Part shown: piece after piece, positions 6,759 to 59,840 of the stretch | How the letters are laid out: every line of letters starts with the position of its first letter | Numbering within the stretch: the first letter of the stretch is position 1 | DNA from: Actinomycetota bacterium | GTDB lineage: Bacteria; Actinomycetota; Acidimicrobiia; IMCC26256; VFJJ01 | Length of the DNA: 64,000 nucleotides | NCBI GenBank assembly: GCA_009886115.1 | Contig: VFJJ01000011.1 | Span: 91,348-155,347 of the forward strand | Reading direction: 5' to 3' | Translations under genes and position numbers: made by a program | The notes under the pieces: generated by a model | Seen by the model: only the letters and a program-made list of their open reading frames with translations | The model's database searches: none | Told to the model about the DNA's origin: nothing

Positions 6759-8041
6759 CCACGAGCCCCTCTACCACCCGAGCCGGTGGCGTCCATCTCG
6801 ATCCGCCGGGCCCCGAGCCGGTCGGGCTCGGCCGATTCGGCGATTTCGGCGGCATGTACGTGCCTGAGACACTCGTTCCGGCGCTGGAAGATCTCACCGT
6901 CGAGTTCCGCACGGCCTGGCACGACACCGCCTTCCGGACGGAGTTCGCCGAGTTGCTCGGTTCGTACGCCGGGCGCCCGTCTCCGGTGACCGAGTGCCAC
7001 CGGCTCTCCGCGCATCTCGGGATTCGGGTCCTGCTCAAGCGGGAAGACCTGAACCACACCGGTTCGCACAAGATCAACAACGTCCTCGGCCAGGCGCTGC
7101 TCACGCGACGGATGGGCAAGAAGCGGGTCATCGCCGAGACGGGGGCCGGTCAGCACGGTGTGGCCACAGCCACCGTGGCGGCCCTGTTCGGCCTCGAATG
7201 CCGTGTGTACATGGGCTCGGTCGATGTAGAGCGCCAGGCGCTCAACGTCTTCCGGATGCGGCTGCTCGGAGCCGAGGTCGTCCCGGTCACAAGTGGCAGC
7301 GCCACCTTGAAGGACGCCGTCAACGACGCGCTCCGCCACTGGGTTGCGTCGGTCGAGACGACGCACTACATCCTCGGATCGGTCGTCGGCCCGCATCCCT
7401 TCCCGTGGATGGTCAGGGAGTTCTGCCGCGTCGTGGGTGACGAGGCGCGCGAGCAGTGCCGCCTGATCCTCGATGGTCGCGATCCCGACGTGGTGGTGGC
7501 CTGTGTGGGAGGGGGTTCCAACGCCATTGGTACCTTCACCGGGTTCGTCGACACCGACGCTCGTTTGATCGGGGTGGAAGCCGGGGGCCAGGGGCTCGAG
7601 TCGGGCCGCCATGGCGCGGCCCTGTCGCGGGGTGTTCCGGGCATCTTGCACGGAGCGCGGAGCTACTTCATGCAGGACGAGCACGGGCAGATCCTCGAAG
7701 CCCACTCCATCTCTGCCGGGCTCGACTATCCGGGGGTGGGCCCCGAGCACGCCAGCCTGAAGGCGAGCGGTCGGGCCGAGTACAGCCACGCCACCGACGA
7801 GATGGCACTCGTTGGGGTGCGCCTCCTGGCCCGGCTCGAGGGGATCATGCCGGCGCTCGAACCGGCGCATGCCATCGGATGGCTCGCTGATGCGGTCGGT
7901 CGAGCCGATGGCGTCGCTGTCGGCTCCACGGTGCTGATCACGCTCTCGGGACGGGGCGACAAGGACGCCGAGCAACTGGCCGAGCGCTACGCCGGCGCCT
8001 TCGGTCTCGAGCCGGTCGAGCGCGACGAACGTCCGCGATGA
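6755..8041 (+). CDS. trpB: Tryptophan synthase beta chain
   Basis: It condenses indole with serine using pyridoxal phosphate and works as an alpha2-beta2 complex with TrpA. The 428-residue protein has [14 protein letters not shown], the cofactor lysine motif [14 protein letters not shown], catalytic [14 protein letters not shown], the phosphate-binding [10 protein letters not shown] and GVEAGG. The C-terminal region includes [17 protein letters not shown] and the serine loop [10 protein letters not shown] choose ATG at 6755 because AGAGG sits seven bases before it and it overlaps the trpF stop as ATGA. The trpA start overlaps its stop the same way. Confidence 0.97.
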
Positions 8042-53454: not shown

Positions 53455-54651
53455 TCAACCCGGCTCTCGGGGTAGGCCCAGCCCCAGTTGGGCGATGGTG
53501 GTGCGTTGGATCTCGTTGGCGCCGACGCTCAACGTGGGGTGCAGCCGTTCGACGGCCTCGTAGGCGAACCATCGGCCGAGCGGAGGCTGGGCGAACCAGC
53601 CCGGCGCCGCGAGCACGTCCGGGCCCAACAGCCGGGAACCCGAGCGGGCGATGCCCTGAAGGAGCTCCGTCGCCCAGACCTTCACCGAGGCCGACTCGAC
53701 GACCGGCGCCCCTCCGACGTCCTGGGCCCACAGGACCCGCTCCGCGAAGCGCATCCCCAGCCAGAACCGGGTGACCAGTGACGCGAGCTCGTCGCGCACC
53801 GTGGGGTCGCGGGTTCCCCGGGCCAGCTCGACCAGGGCCTCGAGGTTGCGCCGGGCCCAGCCCAGCCAGGCCATGCCCGAACGCTCGTTGAGCAACGCCG
53901 CACCGAGTTGACGCCAGCCCCGGGATCGTTCGCCCAGCAGCGCCTCGGCGCCGACGATCGCCCCGTTGAAGCGGATCGTCCCGAGGTCCCAGCCGTTGGC
54001 GGTGCGGACCCGTTCGACCTCGACCCCGGGCGTCGACATGGGCACGAGCAGCATCGACAGGCCCTGGTTGCGAACCGTCCCCGGCTCGGTGCGGGCGATG
54101 GTGAGGCACCAGTGCGCCTTGTGCGGACCGGTCACGAGCACCTTCTCGCCGTCGATCACGAAGGCGGTCGGCTCGCCGTCGGCGCCGTGCTCGTCGGGGA
54201 AGGCCGTCGTGGTGATCTCGGCCAGGTCGGAGCCGGCGCCGGCCTCGGTGTAGGCGATGGCGGCGTTGATGGTGCCGGCGATGGCCGGGGGAAGGAAGGC
54301 GTCCTTCTGAGCCGGGCTCCCGAACTGGATGACCGTCGGGGCGACGAGAGCCACCGCGGTGTCGATGAGCGGCGCGTCGTGGTAGGCCGCCTCGTGCGAC
54401 ACCACGGCCTGGAACGAGCGCGGACGGCCCTGGCCACCGTGCTCGACGGGCAGGCTGACACCGAGAAGCCCGGCGGCGCCGGCCTTGCGTAGCACCGACG
54501 ACTCGAACCGCTCCGACCAACCGGTGAGATCGCGCCCGTCGCGATCGGCGTCGGTTCCCTCGCTCATCCACCCGGCCAGTTGCTCACGCAGCCCACGCCG
54601 GAACGCTGCGAGCTCGTCGGGGAAGCAGAAGTCGGGAAGCTCCCCGGACAT
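53455..54651 (-). CDS. Acyl-CoA dehydrogenase
   Basis: The 398-residue enzyme has LPVEHGGQGRPRSFQAVVSHE, AAIAYTEAGAGSDLAEITTTA for FAD, VIDGEKVLVTGPHKAHWC, NGWDLGTIRFNGAIVGAEALLG and the C-terminal HPTLSVGANEIQRTTIAQLGLGLP. The last motif (GANEIQRTT) replaces the usual GGTxEIQRN. ATG 54651 has GAGG seven bases upstream; residues further out overlap the divergent kinase leader. It leads a three-gene minus-strand unit with the thioesterase and CoA transferase. Confidence 0.9.
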   Translation of the reverse strand: MSGELPDFCFPDELAAFRRGLREQLAGWMSEGTDADRDGRDLTGWSERFESSVLRKAGAAGLLGVSLPVEHGGQGRPRSFQAVVSHEAAYHDAPLIDTAVALVAPTVIQFGSPAQKDAFLPPAIAGTINAAIAYTEAGAGSDLAEITTTAFPDEHGADGEPTAFVIDGEKVLVTGPHKAHWCLTIARTEPGTVRNQGLSMLLVPMSTPGVEVERVRTANGWDLGTIRFNGAIVGAEALLGERSRGWRQLGAALLNERSGMAWLGWARRNLEALVELARGTRDPTVRDELASLVTRFWLGMRFAERVLWAQDVGGAPVVESASVKVWATELLQGIARSGSRLLGPDVLAAPGWFAQPPLGRWFAYEAVERLHPTLSVGANEIQRTTIAQLGLGLPREPG

Positions 54652-54764
54652 CGTCACGCCTCGAGACGCTAGCCAACGGGTTCGAACGATGTTTCGGTAT
54701 CGCCGTGGCATCGGGGGGATCAACCCGGTACCGTTTCGACAGCCGGCGAGGCAGGAGGTGGCCG

Positions 54765-55640
54765 ATGGCGTTCTCGACCGACGATGCTTCGCCGCTTCTC
54801 GGCATCCCCGGCTACGAGAACGTCCTCGAGATCGGTCGGGGCGGGTTCGGGATCGTGTACCGGGCCCGCCAAGCGGAGCTCGATCGGGTGGTCGCCGTGA
54901 AGGTGCTCACATCCGTCGTCGACGCCAAGGCGTTGCAGCGTTTCGACCGCGAGCGCAAGGCCCTCGGGGCGTTGTCGGACCACCCCAACATCGTCACGAT
55001 CTTCGAATCGGGCACCACCGCACGCGGCATGCCGTTCCTCACGATGGAGTTCCTGGCCGGCGGATCGTTCGGCGATCGGCTGGCGAGTGCCGGTGCGGTC
55101 GATTGGCCGAGCGTCGTCGCCATGGCGGTCTTGGCGCCAGGGCCCCCGCTTCCGCCGCCGGTAGCCACCACGTCACCCGCGACGAGCACGACGCTCGCTC
55201 CGGTGCTCATGCCCGACGTCATCGGCCTCAGCCAAGCGGCGGCCCGTTCAGCAGTCACCGACCTCCAGCGCAGCTTCAAGCCGCAGGGCTACTTCGCGTA
55301 CACCGAGAGCCTGAAGTGCAACGGCAACACCGATCCCAGCCTGTTCGGCACGGTGCACGCCCAGAGCCCTCCGGCCGGGACTGCCATGTTCTTCCAGCAG
55401 CCGGCCAGCATCGACATCTACGAGACCTGCACGACGGTCCCCAACCTCCTCGGTGCCGACCGGAACTCGCAGGCACCGGCGCTCGTGCTCCAAGCTGCCC
55501 TCCAGGCCACGTACACGATGGGCGCTTGTCAATCCGGTGTCGGATCGAACGTCGTCATCGCCCAGGATCTGGCCGATGGATCGATCGTCAAGACCAACTC
55601 GATCGTCAGGGTCACCTTCACTCCAGCGAGTTGCCCGTAG
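54765..55640 (+). CDS. PASTA-type Ser/Thr kinase with catalytic core deleted
   Basis: The 291-residue product starts as a normal kinase: EIGRGGFGIVYRARQAELDRVVAVKVL (split glycine loop and Lys), the C-helix RERKALGALSDHPNIV, and MEFLAGGSFGDRLAS. After WPSVVAMAV the sequence jumps directly to VLAPGPPLPPPVATTSPATS, an extracytoplasmic linker, then two PASTA-like units: VLMPDVIGLSQAAARSAV and TTVPNLLGADRNSQAPAL. HRD, DFG, APE and the membrane helix are all absent, though the frame is intact. It cannot be an active or membrane-anchored kinase. An in-frame deletion of about 700-900 bases is the simplest cause. AGGAGG before ATG 54765 is excellent. Confidence 0.88.
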   Translation: MAFSTDDASPLLGIPGYENVLEIGRGGFGIVYRARQAELDRVVAVKVLTSVVDAKALQRFDRERKALGALSDHPNIVTIFESGTTARGMPFLTMEFLAGGSFGDRLASAGAVDWPSVVAMAVLAPGPPLPPPVATTSPATSTTLAPVLMPDVIGLSQAAARSAVTDLQRSFKPQGYFAYTESLKCNGNTDPSLFGTVHAQSPPAGTAMFFQQPASIDIYETCTTVPNLLGADRNSQAPALVLQAALQATYTMGACQSGVGSNVVIAQDLADGSIVKTNSIVRVTFTPASCP

Positions 55641-57304
55641 TGAGCGTTTCTCGCCACCAGCCTGTGACGATCCCGGACGTGGTGCGCGACGCCGCCCGCC
55701 GTTGGCCCGACGGTGAGGCGCTCGTCGTGGGGGAGCGGCGCTGGACCTTCACCGAGCTCGCCGGCGAGGTCGACCGGCATGCGGCGACGCTCGTGCGCGA
55801 CGGCATCTCGACGGGTGATCGTGTCGCTCTCTGGGCGCCGAGCTCGGCCGAGTGGATCATCACCGCGCTCGGTGTGCTCGCAGCCGGCGCCACGGTCGTG
55901 CCGCTCAACACGCGCTACAAGGGGGTCGAGGCGACCGACATCCTGAACCGGTCGCGAGCCAGGATCCTGTTCACCAGCATGGGCTTTCTCGGTCTCGACT
56001 TCCCGCAGGCCCTGGCCGACACCGGCATCGCGCTCCCGACGCTCGAGCGCATGGTGCTCCTCGGCGTCGACGCCATGGCGGTCTTCGACACGACGGTGTC
56101 GGGAGCGCTCCCGAACGTGGGGCCCGACGACATCAGCCATGTCCAGTACACCAGCGGCACCACCGGCGCTCCGAAGGGGGCGATGCTGCGCCATCGGGCG
56201 ATGGTCGACACGACCCGCATCTGGACCGACGCCGTCGGCCTCGGTCCCGGCGATCGCTACCTCATCTCGAGCCCGTTCTTCCACATTGCCGGGCACAAGA
56301 CGGGCATCCTGGCGTGCATCACCGCCGGGGCGACCATGGTGCCGGTGCCGCTCTTCGACGCCGACACCGCCCTCGAGCTCATCGAGCGCGAGCGGATCAC
56401 CGTGATGCAGGGGCCGCCGACGATCTTCCATTCGCTGCTCGCCCATCCCGATCGCGGTCGGTTCGATCTCAAAAGCCTGCGGCTGTGCGTGACGGGCGCC
56501 GCCACCGTGCCTGTCGAGCTGATCCGACGCATCCGTGCCGAGCTGCCCTTCGAGAGCGTGATCACGAGCTACGGGCTCACCGAGACGACAGGCGTCGCCA
56601 CGATCTGCTCCGCCGACGATCCGCCGGAGGTCATCGCCCACACCTCGGGGCGGCCCATCCCCGGTGTCGAGGTGCGCATAGCAGCGATGGACCCCACTCG
56701 AGTCGACGGGCCCCGTACCGGCACCGGCCGCGTCGACGGGCCCAGCTCCGGCGACGCCGAGCGCACCGGTGAGATCCTGGTGCGGGGCATCGGGACCATG
56801 GCGGGCTACCTCGACGATCCCGCGGGTACGGCCGAGACCATCGACACCGAGGGTTGGGTCCACACCGGCGACGTGGGCCGCCTCGACCAGCAGGGCAACC
56901 TGGTGATCACCGATCGGCTCAAGGACATGGTGATCGTCGGCGGGTTCAACGTGTACCCGGCCGAGGTCGAGAACCTGATGCTGGCCCACCCGGCGCTGGC
57001 CCAGGTGGCGGTCGTCGGTGTCGCCGACGAGCGTCTGGGTGAGGTCACCGTGGCGTACGCGGTGCTGCGCTCCGACGGTGTCGGCGGTGTCGACGGTGCC
57101 GACGACCCGGGGGGTCCGGAGGGTCCGAGCTCGACGGCGGAGGAGCTCGTGGCGTGGTGCCGAGCGCACATGGCGAACTTCAAGGCTCCCCGCCAGGTCG
57201 TGCTGGTCGAGGGCCTGCCCACCAACGCTGCCGGCAAGGTCGACAAGCTGGTCCTGCGTGAACGAGCGCGGCGAGGCACCGCGCCGGGCAGAATGCCGTC
57301 ATGA
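55640..57304 (+). CDS. Acyl-CoA synthetase (AMP-forming)
   Basis: The 554-residue ligase activates a carboxylic acid to its CoA ester. Core motifs are VQYTSGTTGAPKGAMLRHRA (P-loop), SSPFFHIAGHK, ITSYGLTETTGVA, WVHTGDVGRLDQQGNLVITDRLKDMVIVGG (split for length) and the catalytic Lys in LPTNAAGKVDKLVLRE. It resembles FadD3/FadD17-like actinobacterial enzymes. Two low-complexity insertions (TRVDGPRTGTGRVDGPSSG and VGGVDGADDPGGPEG) occur at surface loops. GTG 55640 overlaps the kinase stop. It is followed by an overlapping selenoprotein gene. Confidence 0.92.
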   Translation: MSVSRHQPVTIPDVVRDAARRWPDGEALVVGERRWTFTELAGEVDRHAATLVRDGISTGDRVALWAPSSAEWIITALGVLAAGATVVPLNTRYKGVEATDILNRSRARILFTSMGFLGLDFPQALADTGIALPTLERMVLLGVDAMAVFDTTVSGALPNVGPDDISHVQYTSGTTGAPKGAMLRHRAMVDTTRIWTDAVGLGPGDRYLISSPFFHIAGHKTGILACITAGATMVPVPLFDADTALELIERERITVMQGPPTIFHSLLAHPDRGRFDLKSLRLCVTGAATVPVELIRRIRAELPFESVITSYGLTETTGVATICSADDPPEVIAHTSGRPIPGVEVRIAAMDPTRVDGPRTGTGRVDGPSSGDAERTGEILVRGIGTMAGYLDDPAGTAETIDTEGWVHTGDVGRLDQQGNLVITDRLKDMVIVGGFNVYPAEVENLMLAHPALAQVAVVGVADERLGEVTVAYAVLRSDGVGGVDGADDPGGPEGPSSTAEELVAWCRAHMANFKAPRQVVLVEGLPTNAAGKVDKLVLRERARRGTAPGRMPS

Positions 57305-59013
57305 CCCGACTGACGATCGTCAACCCCATCGCCCGGCCCCTCGCTTCGACCCAGGAAGCCGAGCGCTACGAGCCCGCACCCCGCCCGGGCACCCTCGATG
57401 GCCTCACCGTCGGACTGTTCTGGAACGGCAAGCCCCTGGGCGACATCGGGCTCGCTCGCACCCGCGAGAACCTCGAGCGGCTCTACACCGGGCTGCGGTT
57501 CGTCGACGTGTTCGGGGCCAAGGGCGGGCTCACCCGCTTCGCCAGCCCCGAGCAGCTCGACCTCATGGAAGCCGAGTGCGACGTCGTGGTGGGTGCCACC
57601 GCCGATTGAGGCGCGTGCACCTCGTGGCTCATGCGTGACATGAGCGCGCTGGAACGCCGAGGCGTTCCCACCGTTGCCTGGACGTCGTCGGAGTTCGTCG
57701 AGGACGCCCATTGGAGCTCGAACGTCTTCGGCGTCCCCGAGCTGCCCATCGCCGAGGTCACCCAACCCTTCACCAACCGCGACCCGGCGACCATTAACGC
57801 CATGGTCGACGGGGCCATGAACCAGGTGCTCGACGCGCTCACCCGGGGACGTGAGCGGCTCACCGCCGTGCCTGTCTTCCAACACGTGAACCTGGTCGAG
57901 GATCCCGTGTTGCACTACGACGGCGACGACCTGCTCGGCGCCTGGGACCGGATGAACGTCGAGTTCATCGCGGCGGGCTGGTCCGACGGGTTGCCGCTCG
58001 TCGCCCCGACACCCGAGAAGGTCGCCGCCATGGTCGCGGGGAGCGGGCGGGCCGCCGACGACCTGGTCGGGATCTTCGCGCCGGGCGACGGCATCGGGAC
58101 GGTCGAGAAGATCGCGGCAAACGCGGTGATGGCCGGCGCCAGCCCGACCCACATGCCGGTGATCCTGGCGATGATGGACTGCGTTCTCGATCCCACGATC
58201 GGCTTGCGCACCTGGGCCATGTCGACCGGTCCGCAAGCGCCCGTGGTGTTGGTGAGCGGACCGTACGCCGAGGCGATCGGGATGAACTCCGGCATCTGCG
58301 CGCTCGGCCCGGGCTCGATCTCGCACGTCAACGTGGTGATCGGGCGCACGCTCCGCCTCGTGATGATGAACGTCGGCCATTCCTATCCCGGCGTCTCCGA
58401 CATGGACACCATCGGGAACTCCATGAAGTTCTCGGCCTGCGTCGCCGAGAACGAAGCCCGCAACCCCTGGGAGCCGTGGCGGGTGCAACAGGGCTTCTCA
58501 GCGGAGGCGACGACCGTCACGGTCAACGTGCCCTACGGCGTCTGCGAGCTGTTCGACTTCCAGAACTGGGAGCCCGACAAGCTCGTCGAGAACTTCGCCA
58601 CCGTGGCCTCCAACGCCTGTGCCACACCCAGCAACGGCGTCTGGCTGGTGAAGACGCCGGCCGACCTGTCGGCGGGGTACCCGTTCAGTGGCGACTTCCA
58701 CAACCTCATCCTCATGTGCCCTGAGCACGCCGAGGCCTTCGCTGTGGGGGGCTGGTCGCCCACCGACATCGCCGAGGGCCTGTGGGAGCGGGCGCGCCTG
58801 CCGTTCCGGGTGCTCATGCTCAACCAGCCCATGAAGAGCTTCGAGGTGTCGCACCCCGAGCTGTTGCACCTGATCGACGAGCCCGAGACGATGCTGCCGG
58901 TGTGCCCGACGGCCAAGGCGTATCAGGTGTTCGTGGTCGGCGCCGATGCCGGACGGTCACTGTTCTTCCACGGCGGCACGATCTCGGTCACCAAGGAGGT
59001 CCGCCTGCCGTGA
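57301..59013 (+). CDS. UGSC-family selenoprotein, in-frame TGA read as Sec103
   Basis: The gene is one reading frame of 570 residues interrupted by TGA at 57607-57609. Before it is VGLFWNGKPLGDIGLARTRE and DVVVGATAD; directly after it is GACTSWLMRDMSALERRGVP. The join ATAD-U-GACTSW matches the U-G-S-C redox motif that names the UGSC family. A 7-bp hairpin lies 18 bases after the TGA. Residues 1-185 are the UGSC domain. Residues 205-570 are a second domain (EFIAAGWSDGLPLVAPTPEK; GTVEKIAANAVMAGASPTHM; ISHVNVVIGRTLRLVMMNVG) found with it but of unknown role. A Sec-Cys pair suggests redox or peroxidase-like chemistry. It overlaps the synthetase by four bases and the thioesterase by one. Selenocysteine machinery must be elsewhere. 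Confidence 0.88.
57610..57645 (+). promoter_or_regulatory. Putative bacterial SECIS hairpin
   Basis: GCTCATG (57627-57633) and CATGAGC (57639-57645) form seven perfect pairs around CGTGA. The G in the second loop position lies 26 bases after the TGA, inside the 16-37 range reported for bacterial SECIS loops. An outer GCGCG/CGCGC pairing can partly extend the stem. It would bind SelB and direct selenocysteine insertion. Confidence 0.65.
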
Positions 59014-59840
59014 TGGTGGTCGCCGCCGACGGTGACACCCGACGCGGGCCGTTCGTCTTCTCTGTCGAGCAGCGGTGGTGCACCGGCGATCGTCTCTTCG
59101 GCGGCGTCGCGTTCGGTGCCGCTCTGGCCGCGCTCGAGCTCGCCGTCGAACGGCCCACCATCTCGGCGGCAGCCCAGTTCGTGAACACCGGCCGCCTGGG
59201 TGAACCCCTGACGATCGCCACCGAGGTGCTCGTCGCCGGGACGGGCGCGACCCAAGCCCGGGCCAGCGCGGTGCAGGGGTCGGTCACCGTGGCGCTGGTC
59301 TCGGCGACCCTCGGCGCGCTGGGCCCTTCCGGGTCGGTCGACCCGCCCGACCCGCCCGACCCGCCCGACCCGCCCGACCCGGGAGCAACCTGGGGCGCCG
59401 GGGAACGCTCCCGTGGCGCCCCGGTGGTCGCCAACCCGGAGCAGTGCAGGCCGCGCGAGTACCAGAACCCGCTTGCCGGCTCCATCACCGAGACGCTCGA
59501 CGTGCGGGTGGCCGGGGTGACCCCGTCCACCGTGGTGCTGTGGGCCCGATGGGTCGAGGCCACCGCGTCGTCCGGACCGGCCTCGGCGCTGGCCCTCCTC
59601 AGCGACCATGTGCCGTATGGGGTTCGCCTGGTTCAGGGCCCCGAGTTGTACGGGGTGAGCCTCGACGCGACGCTGCGGATGCTGCCGGCGGCTGCGGCGT
59701 GGGAACCGTCGGCCTGGGTGCTGCTCGAGATCACCTACGACATGCTCGGGGCGTACGGCCACGGCACCGTGTGGCTCTGGGACCTCGACGGACGACCGCT
59801 GGCGATCTCCACCCAGACCGTCCGCATCCGCCACTGGTAG
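59013..59840 (+). CDS. Acyl-CoA thioesterase, TesB-like double hot-dog
   Basis: The 275-residue protein has the first hot-dog opening FVFSVEQRWCTGDRLFGGVAFGAALAALE, where FGG is the family signature, then AAAQFVNTGRLGEPLTIATEVL. The second half includes VRVAGVTPSTVVLWARWVEA and AWVLLEITYDMLGAYGHGTVWLWD, typical of TesB-type ends. A (DPP)4-DPG run from a 9-nt repeat links the two halves. The ATG at 59013 overlaps the selenoprotein stop (TGATG); a GTG at 59010 is an alternative, and AGGAGG lies just upstream. Confidence 0.82.
   Translation: MVVAADGDTRRGPFVFSVEQRWCTGDRLFGGVAFGAALAALELAVERPTISAAAQFVNTGRLGEPLTIATEVLVAGTGATQARASAVQGSVTVALVSATLGALGPSGSVDPPDPPDPPDPPDPGATWGAGERSRGAPVVANPEQCRPREYQNPLAGSITETLDVRVAGVTPSTVVLWARWVEATASSGPASALALLSDHVPYGVRLVQGPELYGVSLDATLRMLPAAAAWEPSAWVLLEITYDMLGAYGHGTVWLWDLDGRPLAISTQTVRIRHW
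59340..59384 (+). repeat. 9-nt repeat encoding (DPP)n
   Basis: Five units of GAC-CCG-CCC (the last is GAC-CCG-GGA) encode DPPDPPDPPDPPDPG inside the thioesterase, at the linker between its two domains. Confidence 0.9.

Follow-up and report, generated by a model that had tools for sequence, protein, structure and literature searches.

The UGSC family of selenoproteins was described by Zhang and Gladyshev in 2008, and that paper (PMC2398784) also records a fusion of UGSC to a domain called 'Unknown_1'. In environmental data it is one of the more abundant families of selenoproteins, yet it is an orphan in function. A second group of selenoproteins relevant here comprises GrdB and PrdB of the glycine, sarcosine and proline reductases (PF07355, TIGR01917/TIGR01918), which carry selenocysteine (Sec) in a U-G-T/S-x-T segment. 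The Sec proteins of glycine reductase are reduced by thioredoxin. With these systems we compare a gene found in the window, i.e. the whole stretch of 64,000 nucleotides of actinobacterial DNA that was analysed. The gene with its parts and the ligase and thioesterase genes on either side of it lie on the plus strand.

Reading frame and evidence for selenocysteine decoding

When the TGA at 57607-57609 is read as Sec, positions 57301-59013 of the window translate into one open frame of 570 residues. This codon is the single internal TGA, corresponds to residue 103 in the context GATAD-U-GACTSW and is followed by the terminal TGA at 59011-59013. Cys106 (57616-57618), the presumed resolving Cys of the U-G-A-C motif, is invariant in 23 of 23 aligned UGSC domains, and the motif Gly is invariant as well. 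Standard ORF calling splits the gene into 57301-57609 (102 aa) and 57631-59013 (460 aa), precisely the failure that the earlier note had predicted when it joined the two frames across the TGA with coordinates that proved exact. The internal ATG at 57631 is located within a hairpin (57627-57645) and has no purine-rich site at normal spacing upstream. A start there would remove the motif along with the N-terminal half of the UGSC domain. The sequence thus bears out what the same note had remarked on the missing ribosome-binding site and the loss of the motif. Translational coupling with the upstream acyl-CoA ligase frame (54485-57304) is plausible, because ATG 57301 overlaps the stop of that frame as ATGA. 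The stop of the UGSC gene overlaps the next start as TGATG (59011-59015); with overlaps at both of its ends, the gene is arranged like a member of a compact operon.

It is virtually certain that the N-terminal region belongs to the UGSC domain family. A profile search of the joined protein matched PF24696 with residues 10-181 (57328-57843; E 7e-35, model positions 2-171 of 172) at 121 bits, which is above the gathering score of 25, and the match continues across the TGA. The score for NF041046 was 105.4 bits, missing the equivalog cut-off of 125 bits; the paralogues L065 (122) and L067 (110) and the orthologue L079 (106) likewise fall below this value. The U/C-G-S-C motif is present as the variant UGAC. 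The replacement of Ser by Ala had been pointed out before and is confirmed, but it is not unique to this gene, since the paralogue L067 has UGAC too, as does a clade found in other genomes (L029, L031-L033, L040, L044).

The full Sec machinery is encoded in the host genome, an assembly of 224 contigs and 5.45 Mb that is 96% complete. The genes selA (459 bits), selB (294-320 bits) and selD (398 bits) all score above the curated cut-offs. Contig C73 carries adjoining selA and selB together with tRNA-Sec (selC; anticodon TCA, i.e. UCA), and selD is located on C57. Eight UGSC genes were found in this genome, each with exactly one TGA, always at the motif. In 50 collected UGSC entries, which are partly redundant, the motif codon is TGA in 46 and TGC (Cys) in 4, the latter representing three distinct genes. 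Cys homologues with TGC aligned to the UGA, by which bacterial selenoproteins are recognised, are L076, L077 and L078. The selenoprotein reading of the earlier note is upheld by the TGA conserved in relatives, the UGSC match and the Sec machinery; judged from these comparisons, the gene almost certainly encodes a selenoprotein in which UGA 57607 is decoded as Sec. A sequencing error at this position is very unlikely, because PF24696 is continuous, a 71%-identical gene of another phylum has the TGA and all eight paralogues of the host genome have it as well.

The organism class had been regarded as little noted for Sec, a view that does not hold, as selA was found over the cut-off in 199 of 296 sampled genomes; Actinobacteria were already named a selenoprotein-rich phylum in 2006 (PMC1794560). 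Judging from a named Actinomycetota MAG of the same order and from the Acidimicrobiaceae orthologue, the class is probably Acidimicrobiia-like. Among the matches listed, UGSC genes across the class mostly have one TGA, and genomes with TGA-type UGSC nearly all have selA, the exceptions being G185 and G291. Genomes with UGSC lacking the TGA and with no selA over the cut-off were, again among the matches listed, G023, G111, G142, G145, G200, G203, G215 and G220. The selA-positive genomes also include roughly 1-Mb ones of one genus (f22 g36). These genomes must use Sec outside UGSC, since they have selA yet are absent from the UGSC list.

The hairpin downstream of the UGA

A SECIS-like hairpin (GCUCAUG-CGUGA-CAUGAGC) is located at 57627-57645, corresponding to +18 to +36 after the UGA. 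It has 7 bp, a 5-nt loop with G-U (57634-57638, 24 nt from the UGA) and a predicted energy of -8.6 kcal/mol, and it conforms in all constraints to the published bSECIS model (PMC13188914), which served as criterion. Since an equally good hairpin follows 6% of all TGAs in the window, the window hairpin taken alone is weak evidence for a SECIS. Rfam yielded no SECIS or other RNA above chance in the gene region. The 80 nt surrounding the TGA fold within the range of shuffled sequences (z -0.77), and the case for the hairpin therefore rests on position, loop and conservation.

In most UGSC relatives, the segment from +12 to +30 after the UGA forms a stem of 7-8 bp closed by a loop of the AGUGU type; the window hairpin is 6 nt farther from the UGA than the hairpins of the paralogues. 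In 18 distinct sequences of relatives, 90.5% of the cells of the stem are paired and four of the seven pairs change on both sides. The covariation score of this set was reached by 0 of 500 shuffles, with slid registers scoring far lower. In the orthologue L075, 22 nt across the hairpin are identical to the window gene, a length that is equalled but not exceeded by identical stretches elsewhere in the gene. The stretch includes CGT, a minor codon that accounts for 10% of the Arg codons in the genes sampled. This identity strengthens the window hairpin as a SECIS. In the Cys orthologue L076, only 5 bp are left at the hairpin position. GrdB-like genes of the same class, as read from their sequences, have a hairpin at the same place after the UGA.

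Partner domain, orthologues and predicted fold

The C-terminal partner domain comprises about residues 206-570 (365 residues; 57916-59010). It has no Pfam or NCBIfam entry, and no convincing match was found in Pfam, NCBIfam or PDB sequences; modelled on its own with AlphaFold2, it reached a mean pLDDT of 87.9. The earlier note had read the two ORFs as one UGSC selenoprotein, which is correct as to the joined gene but overlooked this separate, unannotated domain, which accounts for about two thirds of the protein. A likeness to the fumarase alpha subunit was considered and rejected, the Foldseek match being poor (E 1.9e-3, TM 0.22, rmsd 16.5) and no Fe-S Cys set being conserved.

Elsewhere, the partner occurs as a stand-alone gene beside UGSC. 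Of the 296 genomes of the class, 104 have the partner, in most cases encoded by an ORF of its own, and 105 have UGSC; the two sets of genomes are nearly identical. At all eight UGSC loci of the host genome the partner is adjacent or fused. Gene order varies: a separate partner is often located upstream, a fused one downstream. The same pair, in Cys forms, is also present on haloarchaeal and Arthrobacter plasmids. Based on co-occurrence, adjacency or fusion and the plasmid pairs, UGSC and its partner appear to form a two-component protein, of which the window gene is the fused form; to judge from these sequence patterns, the partner domain is very probably an obligate partner subunit of UGSC. 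We hold the combined assignment as a selenoprotein with a two-component architecture with good confidence.

Two plasmid-borne homologues were observed besides. Acidovorax sp. T1 carries a UGSC-partner fusion with an in-frame TGA on its conjugative IncP plasmid p2-T1 (L083), for which the RefSeq CDS (6923-7213, 97 codons) ends at the TGA. The fusion homologue on plasmid pSPTER of Sporomusa termitida (L084, 6989-8713) has the motif GDMGTSS, in which the active position is occupied by an amino acid other than Sec or Cys.

A scan of genome contigs yielded six full-length fusions orthologous to the window gene (L075-L080). TGA forms are L075 from a Deltaproteobacteria MAG placed in Myxococcota (71% identity), L079 from Chloroflexi (Chloroflexota; 47%) and L080 from Syntrophobacterales (32%). 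The motif codon is TGC in L076 from an Actinomycetota MAG (same contig as G076:C253; 64%), in L077 from Acidimicrobiaceae (63%) and in L078 from Oryzicola mucosus (51%). In the tree, L075 and the window gene form a pair (98/97 support), and the two Cys forms from Actinomycetota group with each other. With midpoint rooting, L076 and L077 are nested among Sec forms, and selA is still present in both genomes (G076, L077), which suggests, on this midpoint root only, a Sec-to-Cys replacement that left a weakened hairpin behind. We did not find selA in the genome of L078, nor in that of L079, a TGA form from a 2.0-Mb MAG of uncertain completeness. No viral copies were found in IMG/VR.

The AlphaFold2 model of the UGSC domain, obtained from a 63-row alignment, has a pLDDT of 92.4 and a pTM of 0.92. 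In this model, Sec103 follows strand 95-101 and directly precedes helix 104-119, with Cys106 one turn on. A selenolate in such a position has a lowered pKa. Foldseek comparison of the model with the PDB returned flavodoxin, WrbA, LarB and DJ-1-like folds, none with E<1e-3, and no thioredoxin fold was among the top 50. The predicted structure thus points to a flavodoxin-like alpha/beta domain and speaks against the Trx-like fold put forward in 2008.

A comparison by hhalign aligned the UGSC profile with that of GrdB-like proteins of the class across 66 columns, the two Sec residues being in register (P 7.5e-5, probability 62%); controls with the partner domain gave P values of 0.04 and 0.67. 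Independently of this, TIGR01917 (GrdB) of NCBIfam matches the paralogue L065 over the same Sec segment (E 0.0012). The window protein itself gave no match to PF07355, the criterion for GrdB/PrdB. At the level of sequence profiles, UGSC is probably a distant homologue of the Sec-bearing end of GrdB/PrdB-type reductases. GrdB/PrdB-like selenoprotein genes with U-G-T-G/S-T-R and a downstream SECIS-like hairpin (L107-L116 and others) are present in about 20 of the 296 genomes. The Pfam GRDB model stops one residue ahead of the Sec, so that the TGA is easily missed; a reading of the class GrdB genes as lacking the TGA was rejected after extension past the end of the model showed U-G-T-G/S-T.

Proposed function and comparison with known systems

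The UGSC gene is located between an AMP-dependent acyl-CoA ligase (55601-57304, start approximate, ORF end 57304; PF00501 E 6e-86, PF13193) and an acyl-CoA thioesterase of the 4HBT_3 type (59013-59840; PF13622 1.3e-10, PF20789 2.2e-10). Genes for CoA-transferase III, acyl-CoA dehydrogenase, MaoC, P450, enoyl-CoA hydratase and TauD are also found nearby in the window. Related fusions have as neighbours an AMP-ligase (L077; L076/L028), CoA-transferase and enoyl-CoA hydratase (L079) or acyl-CoA dehydrogenase (L078). Based on these neighbours and the position between ligase and thioesterase, the substrate of the fusion clade could well be a carboxylate (carboxylic acid) or an acyl-CoA (CoA ester). 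Since the neighbour genes differ from one UGSC locus to another, the acyl-CoA link may be specific to the fusion clade or incidental. The neighbours of the common UGSC type (HhH glycosylase, lysyl-PG synthase TM, flavin reductase) were set aside, as they looked like synteny rather than function. Farther upstream lies the ORF 54705-55637, in which a protein kinase domain is represented by its N-terminal third only (94 of 263 positions) and PASTA comes next; its product is perhaps a truncated or pseudo-kinase.

In the mechanism that we propose, the ribosome would decode UGA 57607 as Sec via SelB, tRNA-Sec and the hairpin just downstream, a step strongly supported by comparison. An electrophilic substrate, bound where the UGSC and partner domains meet, would be attacked by the selenolate of Sec103 and cleaved or reduced, Cys106 would resolve the intermediate as a Se-S bridge, and thioredoxin would restore the reduced enzyme. 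Resetting by thioredoxin is suggested by the analogy to glycine reductase and by a single locus on one Arthrobacter plasmid, where trxB, trxA, partner and UGSC stand in a row. Reductive cleavage is a possible, still tentative, assignment of the chemistry.

An alternative would be a general thiol or selenol peroxidase or disulfide reductase acting via U-x-x-C, with the partner domain as a scaffold. UxxC is indeed the usual redox motif, and those who first described the family suggested that it has a Trx-like fold and acts in redox reactions (PMC2398784). We nevertheless consider this function unlikely: the top 50 Foldseek matches contain flavodoxin, WrbA, LarB and DJ-1-like folds and no thioredoxin, the profile resemblance is to GrdB, and a large one-to-one partner and eight paralogues in differing contexts fit substrate-specific enzymes better. 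It is extremely improbable that the locus holds two separate genes, a 102-residue protein and a second one starting at ATG 57631, as standard calling yields, given that the UGSC domain spans the TGA with the motif at the junction, that a ribosome-binding site is missing before 57631 and that the TGC orthologues are continuous through the motif codon. Equally improbable is a pseudogene or sequencing error, i.e. a TGA mutated or misread from TGC or GGA in an ordinary Cys protein, for which Cys orthologues of 63-64% identity in related Actinomycetota could speak, but which is contradicted by the same TGA codon and hairpin in an independent Myxococcota MAG (L075), by the TGA in seven other paralogues of the genome and dozens of relatives, and by the full Sec machinery.

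Taken together, the window gene most likely encodes a thioredoxin-regenerated two-component selenoenzyme with reductive chemistry within acyl-CoA catabolism, the reaction being what we infer from the above. More speculatively, UGSC and its partner might represent a novel class of two-component selenoenzymes: a GrdB-like module for reductive cleavage, serving actinobacterial acyl-CoA catabolism and present in up to eight copies per genome, presumably for different substrates. The fused window gene would be the form that reveals the pairing. The fused gene, the near-perfect pairing and the distant relation to GrdB turn an orphan family into a testable hypothesis of a two-subunit enzyme. The case also shows one actinobacterial class to be rich in selenocysteine users.

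The UGSC family, its motif and a fusion are already published; as far as the literature was searched, the near one-to-one pairing with the partner, the predicted fold, the link to GrdB and the size of the expansion are new. The window gene resembles the UGSC family (PF24696, NF041046) in its domain match (E 7e-35), in U-G-x-C with Sec in most members and Cys in few, and in a SECIS directly after the UGA. It differs in having UGAC instead of UGSC, a score of 105 versus 125 bits for NF041046, a fused C-terminal domain and a hairpin 6 nt further out. The UGSC/Unknown_1 fusion from marine metagenomes (PMC2398784, Figure S1A) likewise joins UGSC to a conserved unknown domain, and the C-terminal domain of the window protein is probably the same as Unknown_1; the main text of that paper does not report the partner as a nearly universal neighbouring gene.

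In common with GrdB/PrdB, the window protein has the Sec segment, E..GIP and HP..D segments downstream of it, a SECIS-like hairpin at the same distance and Sec residues that align in the distant profile similarity. In contrast to these reductases, it does not have the 340-residue N-terminal GrdB region, its partner domain is unrelated to GrdB and no GrdA partner was identified. The fusion on Acidovorax plasmid p2-T1 shares the in-frame TGA, and its split RefSeq annotation is the same hidden-gene error, illustrating how gene callers break up such genes at the UGA. This fusion differs in belonging to Betaproteobacteria, in its UGSC motif and in being about 30% identical over its length.
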